DNA of 64,000 nt from Serratia sp. FDAARGOS_506 (lineage in GTDB: Bacteria; Pseudomonadota; Gammaproteobacteria; Enterobacterales; Enterobacteriaceae). The DNA lies in NCBI RefSeq assembly GCF_003812745.1, contig NZ_CP033831.1, positions 2,542,001-2,606,000 on the forward strand, in the 5' to 3' direction. The notes under the pieces are model-generated. The model saw only the letters and a list, made by a program, of their open reading frames with translations, was not told where the DNA came from and did no database searches. The position numbers and the translations under genes are program-made. Shown one piece after another: positions 17,345 to 54,308 of this stretch; the first letter of the stretch is position 1, and the number at the start of each line of letters is the position of its first letter.

Positions 17345-17432
17345 TGTAACCGTTAACACGGTTGCTATGCGTATAACTAAAATACAAGAAATTCCTCTTT
17401 GACTGGCCAATAGCGATATTGGCCTCTTTTTT
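17345..17432 (+). ncRNA. chiX: ChiX (MicM/SroB) small RNA
   Basis: An Hfq-type small RNA that keeps chitoporin (chiP) mRNA silent until chitobiose is available; in S. marcescens it also affects chitinase production. The sequence has a first hairpin AACCG/CGGTT, an A-rich linker, the conserved seed GAAATTCCTCTTTGACTGGC, and a terminator stem GGCCAATA/TATTGGCC followed by CTTTTTT. The seed and terminator match E. coli ChiX nearly base for base as I recall it. The location between ybaK and ybaP is also the E. coli one. The 5' end is estimated to within a few bases. The tail overlaps the ybaP stop codon on the other strand. Confidence 0.92.
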
Positions 17433-52814: not shown

Positions 52815-53411
52815 TTAGAGTTTCCTGAACAGGTGAGAAATGGCCTGCTGATACAGATCGCGCAGCAGGGACGCATCGGCTTTTTGCGTGGTAAGGATAC
52901 GGTAACCGGTGCCTTCGCTCATGACGGCGATAAACTCCACCCGCGCGGCGATCTCTTCCGCGCTGAAATGGGGATACAGTCGCTGCAGATTGTGGCACAC
53001 GTGGCGAAACAGCCGCGCTTCCGCGTCGCTGAGCATTTTGGCCACCACCGGGTTGCGCGTGGCCTCGGCGGTCACTTCCAGCATCAGCATATGATCGGTT
53101 TCGCTCTCGCCCGGCTGCTGAAACAGCGTGCGCGCCGCCAGCGTGCCGGCGATCAGGTTAATGTGATCGCCAAGGTTTTCCAACCGCTGCATCTTGCTGG
53201 CGATGATGCGGTTGACGATTTCCTCGATAATCGCGTCTTTATTAGCGAAATAGCGATAGATTTGCCCGACGCTGAGCTGCGAGCCCTGGGCGATTTCCGC
53301 CATACTGGCGGCGTGGAAACCGTGGCGGCGGAAGCTGATTTTCGCCGCTTCGACGATCTGATCGCGGCGGGCCTGCACCTTGGCTTGTTTACTGTCGTTG
53401 GGGGAGAGCAT
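52815..53411 (-). CDS. TetR-family regulator of the adjacent MFS exporter
   Basis: 198 residues. The N-terminal TetR helix-turn-helix is seen at about residues 15-60 (RRDQIVEAAKISFRRHGFHA, then LSVGQIYRYFANKDAIIEEI), and the rest is the ligand-binding helical domain. It heads a two-gene operon with the exporter. It most likely represses this operon and is released by a transported drug-like compound. Confidence 0.92.
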   Translation of the reverse strand: MLSPNDSKQAKVQARRDQIVEAAKISFRRHGFHAASMAEIAQGSQLSVGQIYRYFANKDAIIEEIVNRIIASKMQRLENLGDHINLIAGTLAARTLFQQPGESETDHMLMLEVTAEATRNPVVAKMLSDAEARLFRHVCHNLQRLYPHFSAEEIAARVEFIAVMSEGTGYRILTTQKADASLLRDLYQQAISHLFRKL

Positions 53412-53533
53412 CTGCCCGATCCTTTGCTACGCGTGAGCCGGATTCACATTTTTGGGTGTGAACGTTCATTCTCAATTGTAGTGTAACCGACGGGAAAGAC
53501 GCAAGATGAACGCGTGCTGCGGGGAAAAGGCGC

Positions 53534-53629
53534 TTAAGCGAACAGGTAGGATTTGATAAAGGCGGCGACGATCAGCACGCACAGCGCAACGGCAAACGCT
53601 TCGGCGGCGGTTTTCGGCAGGCTAAACAT
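53534..53629 (-). CDS. 31-residue membrane peptide behind a PmrA box (PmrR-like)
   Basis: A small ORF of 31 codons, too short for routine ORF calling. It begins MFSLPKTAAEAF, has one hydrophobic helix (VALCVLIVAAF), and ends IKSYLFA. GGATGAG lies ten or so bases upstream of the ATG. It is preceded by a perfect PmrA/BasR box and a -10 box, and is on the same strand as crcB just upstream. Size, topology and this regulation resemble PmrR of Salmonella, a PmrA-induced ~30-residue inner-membrane peptide that inhibits LpxT. The orthology is inference. Confidence 0.65.
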   Translation of the reverse strand: MFSLPKTAAEAFAVALCVLIVAAFIKSYLFA

Positions 53630-53637
53630 AGCGGTTT

Positions 53638-53664
53638 CTCATCCAGTCAGGAGTACTGGATGAG
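53638..53664. other. Perfect inverted repeat between crcB and the small ORF
   Basis: CTCATCCAGT and ACTGGATGAG form a 10-bp stem with a seven-base loop. In read-through RNA from crcB it would bury the GGATGAG ribosome site of the small ORF. In RNA starting from the PmrA-box promoter the 5' arm would be largely missing. It has no T run on the minus strand. Confidence 0.6.
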
Positions 53665-53697
53665 ATTATGCGCATGCAAGATTAAGGAAACATTAAG
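53665..53697 (-). promoter_or_regulatory. PmrA (BasR) box and promoter
   Basis: On the minus strand CTTAAT-GTTTC-CTTAAT (53681-53697) is an exact match to the PmrA direct repeat CTTAAT-N5-CTTAAT. Ten bases after it is CATAAT (53665-53670), so the box covers the -35 region, as for a class II activator. Transcription would start near 53658 and lead directly into the 31-codon ORF. Confidence 0.75.
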
Positions 53698-53700
53698 GGC

Positions 53701-54084
53701 TTAGCGCCCGTTGACCCACATCACCAGCATGAAAGCCAGCAGCGTCATCGCCAGCGAGCCGGCCAGGTTGAGCAGCATGTTGGCCAGCGCCCAGCCGAAG
53801 CGGCCATCCTGCATCAGGTACACTACCTCCAGCGAAAAGGTGGAGAAGGTGGTCAGGCCGCCGCAGAACCCGGTGGTGATCAGTAATTTCCAGGTGGGAT
53901 CCAGATGCGTCATGCGGGTGAAAATTGCCATCGCCAGGCCGATGATAAAACCGCCGATCAGATTGACCATCAGCGTACCGAGCGGAATGTGGGCGTTCAG
54001 CGGATTCATTTTCATGCTTACCGCCCAGCGCAATACGCTGCCGACGCCGCCGCCGATAAATACGGCCAGTAAAGAGCTCAACAT
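53701..54084 (-). CDS. crcB: CrcB/Fluc fluoride exporter
   Basis: Small inner-membrane fluoride channel (Fluc), 127 residues with four transmembrane helices. Characteristic segments are [27 protein letters not shown] and the [16 protein letters not shown] segment of the pore. GGGAG lies seven bases upstream of ATG 54084; the six residues upstream in frame are not needed. It is preceded by a fluoride riboswitch, which confirms the function. Confidence 0.97.
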
Positions 54085-54091
54085 GGGGCAA

Positions 54092-54217
54092 CTCCCTTTC
54101 AATCAGAGAAATTCACGGGACTCGGAAAGGGACAGACGTAACGCTACGCGCCCCTCTCCGAGAGGTTACGTAGACATCATCAGCCTGTGAAGGCGGTTAG
54201 GGAGGAATGTCATCTCC
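54092..54217 (-). promoter_or_regulatory. Fluoride riboswitch controlling crcB
   Basis: The aptamer is at 54170-54217 (minus strand): GGAGATGACATTCCTCC, then TAACCGCC and GGCTGATG, ending ATGTCTAC. These are the conserved parts of the crcB motif (GGnGATG...CTGATG...CTAC). Downstream, ACGTAAC (54165-54171) pairs with GTTACGT (54136-54142) and overlaps the aptamer's last bases. CCCTTTC (54125-54131) can pair with GAAAGGG (54094-54100), covering the crcB Shine-Dalgarno sequence. I infer translational control. Confidence 0.85.
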
Positions 54218-54308
54218 AGCATGCCGCACGGCCTTTTTCGCCGTACCCGGTGGATGTTACACCTAACGCCGCCTATTTTGTAGTATCGACAATCTGCGAG
54301 GTCATCCC

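Follow-up and report, generated by a model that had tools for sequence, protein, structure and literature searches.

The closest described relatives of the gene reported here are the PmrR genes of Escherichia coli and Salmonella (b4703; NCBI model NF033224). In the available parts of two papers, PmrR is described solely in these bacteria, next to pmrB, and is reported to inhibit LpxT (PMC8129183, PMC7790251); the E. coli gene is placed between proP and basS/pmrB (PMC8129183). The accessible text of another study reports that E. coli pmrR rises with eptA and the arn genes under iron selection (PMC13405929). The window analyzed here (64,000 nucleotides of Serratia sp. FDAARGOS_506; RefSeq assembly GCF_003812745.1, contig NZ_CP033831.1, positions 2,542,001 to 2,606,000) carries a 31-codon open reading frame (ORF) downstream of crcB, the fluoride channel gene. 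The original prediction, made from the letters of this window, took the ORF for the Serratia PmrR or a functional analogue and suggested that an inverted repeat over its ribosome site keeps it silent in RNA running through from crcB. The analysis points to a PmrR branch that is probably guarded against read-through translation by a lock embedded in its own promoter, a reading that includes a predicted transcription start, predicted PmrA dependence and presumed inhibition of LpxT.

The 31-codon ORF is a real gene. Of 30 genomes in the genus, 26 carry it (the remaining four measure 1.5-3.6 Mb), and at all 26 loci it encodes 31 residues, adjoins crcB and has the identical 17-base box upstream. 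The ratio of nonsynonymous to synonymous substitution rates (dN/dS) is 0.31 across the 24 distinct coding sequences of the genus. Conservation of the reading frame and the box in other Serratia genomes had been named as a check on the original prediction, and both are conserved. Short ORFs are common, and the ORF and repeat might be put down to chance at the crcB 3' end; conservation already refutes this explanation, and with the dN/dS and the covariation described below its probability is negligible. The peptide begins MFSLPKT and, like PmrR, is about 30 residues long with a single hydrophobic helix and a predicted membrane location. Its best 17-residue Kyte-Doolittle mean is 2.62, and the corresponding value is at least 1.75 at all 132 loci of the wider set discussed below. 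Over 127 residues, the CrcB protein of the window shows 100% identity to CrcB from records named Serratia marcescens and S. nevei. A search of a plasmid collection gave no match.

Homology of the Serratia peptide to E. coli PmrR is supported by profile comparison. The profiles of crcB-linked peptides (23 genera) and pmrB-linked peptides (17 genera) match in hhalign at 96.8% (E-value: 2.6e-10), whereas the pmrB-linked peptides reversed, with composition unchanged, reach 5.7% against the crcB-linked profile. Several points weigh against this assignment. The pmrB-linked set was gathered with a profile in which crcB-linked peptides predominated, which favours similarity; pairwise BLAST finds no alignment between E. 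coli PmrR and the Serratia peptide; and the Serratia peptide has no match to NF033224 (cut-off: 30 bits), to which E. coli PmrR scores 74 bits and two other members of the branch score 14 and 16. Pfam and NCBIfam scans of the Serratia peptide found nothing. Because neither pairwise BLAST nor these scans gave a match, the case for homology is a case from profiles, and because the NF033224 cut-off is not reached, the gene is filed as a new PmrR-homologous branch and not as a member of the equivalog. The identification as a Serratia PmrR is supported by profile homology, by promoter anatomy and by the LpxT, EptA and PmrB homologues that the genome encodes; two parts of the likeness, the position beside pmrB and the NF033224 match, do not hold.

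The gene family has two genomic homes. A search profile built from 15 crcB-linked peptides and E. coli PmrR was run on 392 genomes of the family and found peptides of both kinds. The resulting set (80 fetched regions less 2 noise regions, plus 53 earlier loci and E. coli) comprises 132 loci in 43 genera, with 92 loci at crcB, 37 at pmrB and 3 with neither gene found. When the best match per genome is taken, 23 of the 40 placed genera have the peptide at crcB, 17 at pmrB and none at both, and no genome with two peptide places (E-value ≤0.01, wider profile A3) was found among the matches listed. E. coli pmrR overlaps the 3' end of pmrB, and no such ORF lies beside crcB in E. coli K-12, where cspE is 53 bases away. 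In the Serratia genome analyzed here, only 36 bases separate the end of pmrB from an adjoining ORF, presumably obgE, so that there is no room for pmrR at that site.

At an E-value of ≤1e-6, the peptide is found at 38 of 80 crcB loci from named genomes, these being the best and most query-like 80 of 567 candidates. The peptide-bearing loci belong to Serratia, Rahnella, Ewingella, Yersinia, Hafnia, Buttiauxella, Cedecea, Enterobacter (6 of the 10 loci bearing this name), Lelliottia, Franconibacter, Rouxiella, Chimaeribacter, Atlantibacter, Silvania, Mangrovibacter, Huaxiibacter and Entomohabitans. The peptide was not found at the sampled crcB loci of Escherichia, Salmonella, Citrobacter, Klebsiella, Raoultella, Photorhabdus and Xenorhabdus. 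A search across the order (295 genomes, family members included) gave a sole match outside the family, a weak one that is probably due to chance (G483; E-value: 3.5e-4). Two individual loci stand apart. At a Yersinia pekkanenii locus (L180) the box after crcB is kept and the peptide matches the profile weakly (E-value: 0.004), and the gene may be broken. A locus labelled Chryseobacterium (L208) has an enterobacterial-looking crcB (67% identity) and is possibly mislabelled or contaminated.

The leaders analyzed below are those of the fetched matches from the genus search and the family profile search, together with E. coli; three genomes positive with profile A3 (G038, G069 and G090) are among those left out. 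Two fetched loci (L146 and L147) were dropped as noise, four others (L038 and L040-L042), also noise, never entered the set, and six (L028, L029, L032 and L034-L036) were left out because they duplicated other loci of the same genomes. At 30 of the 132 loci the start codon was shifted manually to an in-frame ATG further in, and the boxes of L054 and L060 were likewise reassigned by hand.

The promoter resembles that of PmrR. The box, the -10 element, the inverted repeat over the ribosome site and the 31-codon, one-helix ORF are all present after crcB as had been described (Table 1). The exact CTTAAT-N5-CTTAAT pattern has a single copy in the 4.86 Mb Serratia genome, the one after crcB, and boxes with one mismatch occur there at background (7 in all versus 5 for a backwards control pattern). 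Scored against the consensus assumed for the PmrA box, the best upstream box agrees at 10-12 of 12 positions at every one of the 132 loci and at all 12 positions at 82 loci, while random windows of similar size drawn from these loci reach at least 10 in 250 of 2,640 cases and 12 in 26 of 2,640. The -10 element, ten bases past the box, has A at position 2 and T at position 6 at 132 of 132 loci, although its match is weaker at many MKE-type loci (e.g., CACTAT or CACTCT). By sequence, then, the Serratia gene has a promoter with a PmrA box, and a transcription start near 53658, as originally proposed, would fit the spacing from the -10 element. Elsewhere in the genome (G000:C2:624638-624665; L155 and L156), two overlapping PmrA-like boxes, CTTAAGCAAACCTTAATCTGGCTTTAAT, lie between an SDR (short-chain dehydrogenase/reductase) oxidoreductase-like ORF and a divergent response regulator-like ORF. 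These might reflect cross-talk with PmrA, although boxes with one mismatch do not exceed background in this genome.

The region between the promoter and the start codon is strongly structured. Leaders of the genus Serratia have a mean fold z-score of -6.1 against dinucleotide shuffles. For all 43 genera, leaders that begin at the -10 box and end at the start codon give a genus-mean z-score of -3.13, with 23 genera below -2; by comparison, the 36-base stretches preceding 47 ordinary E. coli genes average -0.05, with 3 of 47 below -2. The two arms of the hairpin, one of which contains the Shine-Dalgarno sequence, differ between genera and remain complementary: the pairs are CTCATCC/GGATGAG in Serratia, CTCCTCC/GGAGGAG in E. 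coli and CTCGCTC/GAGTGAG at a further locus (L030). The mean duplex energy of a genus's own arms is -12.52 kcal/mol, compared with -8.64 kcal/mol (standard deviation 0.41) when the 3' parts are permuted among genera. None of 20,000 permutations is as good as the own pairing, a result that holds separately within the crcB-linked and the pmrB-linked genera. In a chosen alignment of 22 leaders (17 pmrB-linked and 5 crcB-linked), 93.1% of cells pair, changes are seen on both sides in 5 of 8 pairs, and there are 16 double-change cells versus 4.5 after shuffling. The hairpin arms co-vary in both homes, crcB and pmrB. The pattern has exceptions that count against a general role for the hairpin. Four of the 43 genera (g3, g70, g119 and, within rounding, g20) show no preference for their own arms. 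Several crcB-linked genera have a weak hairpin, namely g35 (z-score: 0.1) and g3, g20, g65 and g108 (z-scores: -0.4 to -0.7), as do two of the three unplaced loci (g70 and g119).

An inverted repeat at this position could also be read at the DNA level, as an operator through which a second, dimeric regulator represses the promoter at its start site. The repeat spans the predicted start, a classic position for a repressor, and its arms are nearly fixed within the genus Serratia. Across genera, however, the arm sequence varies while complementarity is kept, and hairpin loops in the folded leaders are 3 to 21 bases long, where a protein-binding dyad would be expected to keep both half-site sequence and spacing. 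The arm-swap and covariation results likewise disfavour an operator, which is therefore very unlikely. The repeat was also considered as an intrinsic terminator for crcB; this was rejected, as no T run follows the stem. No terminator-like site was found in 53350-54300, a stretch that includes the interval between crcB and the peptide gene, and crcB is a possible source of read-through.

The predicted folds differ sharply between the two kinds of RNA that might carry the gene. In Serratia, the unpaired probability of the Shine-Dalgarno sequence is 0.0003 in the fold of crcB read-through RNA versus 0.53-0.68 in RNA beginning at 53657 or 53658. A similar contrast in accessibility is predicted for E. 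coli pmrR, and the Shine-Dalgarno sequence is less accessible in the read-through RNA in 38 of the 43 genera. Of the pairs that involve the Shine-Dalgarno region, 87% have their 5' base before the predicted start, and leaders cut at that start have no excess structure (mean z-scores of +0.17 to +0.20 by class). The 5' arm lies on or directly after the -10 element although leader length spans 40 to 78 bases. It would thus fall between the -10 element and the predicted start and be present in read-through RNA only, the gene's own transcript being predicted to start past it; the -10 element from which this start is predicted is conserved at 132 of 132 loci. Because the Shine-Dalgarno sequence is predicted to be buried only in the longer RNA, the hairpin looks made for RNA that was not started by PmrA.

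If transcription began earlier than the -10 element suggests, the hairpin might instead act within the PmrA-started mRNA, as an RNA thermometer or a 5' stabiliser. A strong hairpin that covers the Shine-Dalgarno sequence would suit such a role, as would the weaker -10 elements of many MKE-type loci. This explanation has a small chance of being correct, since the 5' arm abuts or overlaps the -10 element whatever the length of the leader and the excess structure is gone from the predicted start onward. Covariation in two homes lends strong support to the suggestion of silencing by the inverted repeat when the ORF is carried on RNA that has run through from crcB.

The proposed sequence of events is as follows. 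In response to PmrB signals, PmrA would bind the box, and transcription would start about 7-8 bases past the -10 element, inside the inverted repeat. The PmrA-started mRNA would lack most of the 5' arm, leaving the Shine-Dalgarno sequence free, and the one-helix peptide would be made. By homology, the peptide would most likely inhibit LpxT, so that the lipid A 1-phosphate is left for EptA. Polymerase running in from crcB, which has a fluoride riboswitch upstream, would instead produce a longer RNA with both arms, in which the hairpin would bury the Shine-Dalgarno sequence and little or no peptide would be made. On balance, it would appear that enterobacterial PmrR genes, that of E. coli included, carry this lock and that compensatory change has kept it through relocation between crcB and pmrB, as leaky read-through (from crcB under fluoride, or from proP in E. 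coli) would yield PmrR that shuts off LpxT inappropriately.

Table 1. Features of the crcB-peptide locus in Serratia sp. FDAARGOS_506 (window coordinates)
Feature	Position	Strand	Remarks
Fluoride riboswitch aptamer upstream of crcB	54164..54226	-	RF01734, 52.2 bits
crcB, fluoride channel gene	53701..54084	-	From first ATG of ORF; possible source of read-through
PmrA-type box CTTAAT-GTTTC-CTTAAT (CTTAAT-N5-CTTAAT)	53681..53697	-	Three bases past crcB stop
-10 element CATAAT	53665..53670	-	Ten bases past box; last base is first base of 5' arm
Inverted repeat, 11-bp perfect	53637..53665	-	5' arm 53665-53655; 3' arm 53647-53637
Predicted transcription start	53657..53658	-	Predicted from -10 spacing alone
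Shine-Dalgarno-like GGATGAG	53638..53644	-	8 nt before ATG; within 3' arm
ORF for PmrR-like single-helix membrane peptide, 31 codons and stop	53534..53629	-	ATG at 53629; stop ends at 53534

The fluoride riboswitch would couple any crcB read-through into the peptide gene to fluoride. Two other RNA matches were noted in the window: a cspA-type thermoregulator (RF01766; 51184-51609, plus strand), which covers a cspE-like gene near crcB, and the small RNA sroB (RF00368, 69.7 bits; 17353-17432, plus strand).

The partners expected of a PmrR peptide are encoded in the Serratia genome, which has homologues of LpxT (64% identity; G000:C2:4715883), EptA (52%) and PmrB (55%). Genomes were counted as peptide-positive at an E-value of ≤2.4e-4 with profile A3, a threshold set after the list had been seen. 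On this count, all 128 peptide-positive genomes of the family encode LpxT (242 of 392 genomes are LpxT-positive), and the peptide occurs in none of the 18 LpxT-negative genomes of at least 3 Mb that were listed by the family profile search. The association has a Fisher P-value of 4e-6, a figure that ignores shared ancestry. In genus g78, one genome (G299) has neither an LpxT match nor a peptide match at the threshold and two others (G106 and G362) have both, which may represent a paired loss. LpxT is most likely the target in Serratia as well, to judge from homology and co-occurrence. The following observations weigh against a simple transfer of function. Of the 242 LpxT-positive genomes, 114 lack the peptide at this threshold, although some weaker matches may be real. 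The available part of one paper contains the speculation that the behaviour of PmrR differs between E. coli and Salmonella (PMC8004244), and in the accessible portion of a review, polymyxin resistance of S. marcescens is said to rest on arn, which is PhoP-regulated (PMC4244539). Since arn is reportedly under PhoP control in S. marcescens, the PmrA regulon there may differ. The connection of the peptide to intrinsic polymyxin resistance, which formed part of the original prediction, is accordingly a weaker one.

Many small one-helix peptides regulate sensor kinases or transporters, and the Serratia peptide might be PmrR-like in sequence and act on a different partner, such as PmrB, EptA, ArnT or CrcB. 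The LpxT-positive genomes that lack the peptide and the low pairwise similarity to E. coli PmrR would agree with this. The presence of LpxT in every peptide-positive genome and the lack of the peptide from the listed LpxT-negative genomes argue for LpxT instead, as does the single home per placed genus, which is what one conserved job would give. A different partner is unlikely on this evidence, though it retains an appreciable chance of being the case.

No paper that joins PmrR and crcB was found in the literature searched, and the available parts of publications on PmrR and Serratia contained nothing on a crcB-linked gene. A PmrR hairpin or read-through was not found among the matches listed, although the original description of PmrR (Kato 2012) may mention the leader. 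If the present reading is true, PmrR would be a much wider enterobacterial regulator than described, with a Serratia form that is missed by the NCBI model. It would be relevant wherever lipid A phosphate chemistry affects sensitivity to polymyxin and bile. The lock would also provide a general and testable rule, namely that a small ORF obeys one promoter when half of an inhibitory hairpin is placed upstream of the transcription start. It would be a means of controlling a small regulatory ORF in a crowded genome, and other small genes can be scanned for the pattern.

The Serratia gene can be compared with three kinds of known system. With PmrR of E. coli and Salmonella it shares a peptide of about 30 residues with one helix, a PmrA box with a -10 element ten bases on, profile homology and a hairpin over the Shine-Dalgarno sequence, the last of these noticed in the present analysis; it differs in lying after crcB and not between proP and pmrB, in its N-terminal sequence and in the absence of an NF033224 match. 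MgrB is a PhoP-induced membrane peptide whose target is PhoQ. Like the Serratia peptide, it is a small one-helix peptide in the circuitry of the polymyxin response, but the two differ in sequence, regulator and target. Fold-back inhibition is known from the transposase mRNAs of IS10 and IS50 and from early transcripts of phage T4 gene e. In these systems, too, a hairpin hides the ribosome site of read-through RNA only, and transcripts begun at the gene's own promoter are without the upstream arm. Predicted folds and covariation point to the same arrangement in the peptide genes, that is, a Shine-Dalgarno hairpin with co-varying arms confined to the longer RNA, with several genera as exceptions. 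The IS10, IS50 and T4 hairpins protect mobile elements or time phage genes, whereas that of Serratia is predicted to guard a chromosomal regulatory peptide and, unlike them, is embedded in the promoter of a two-component system. The gene is accordingly rated as a new branch of PmrR, and its proposed lock as a new form of a mechanism familiar from transposons and phage T4.
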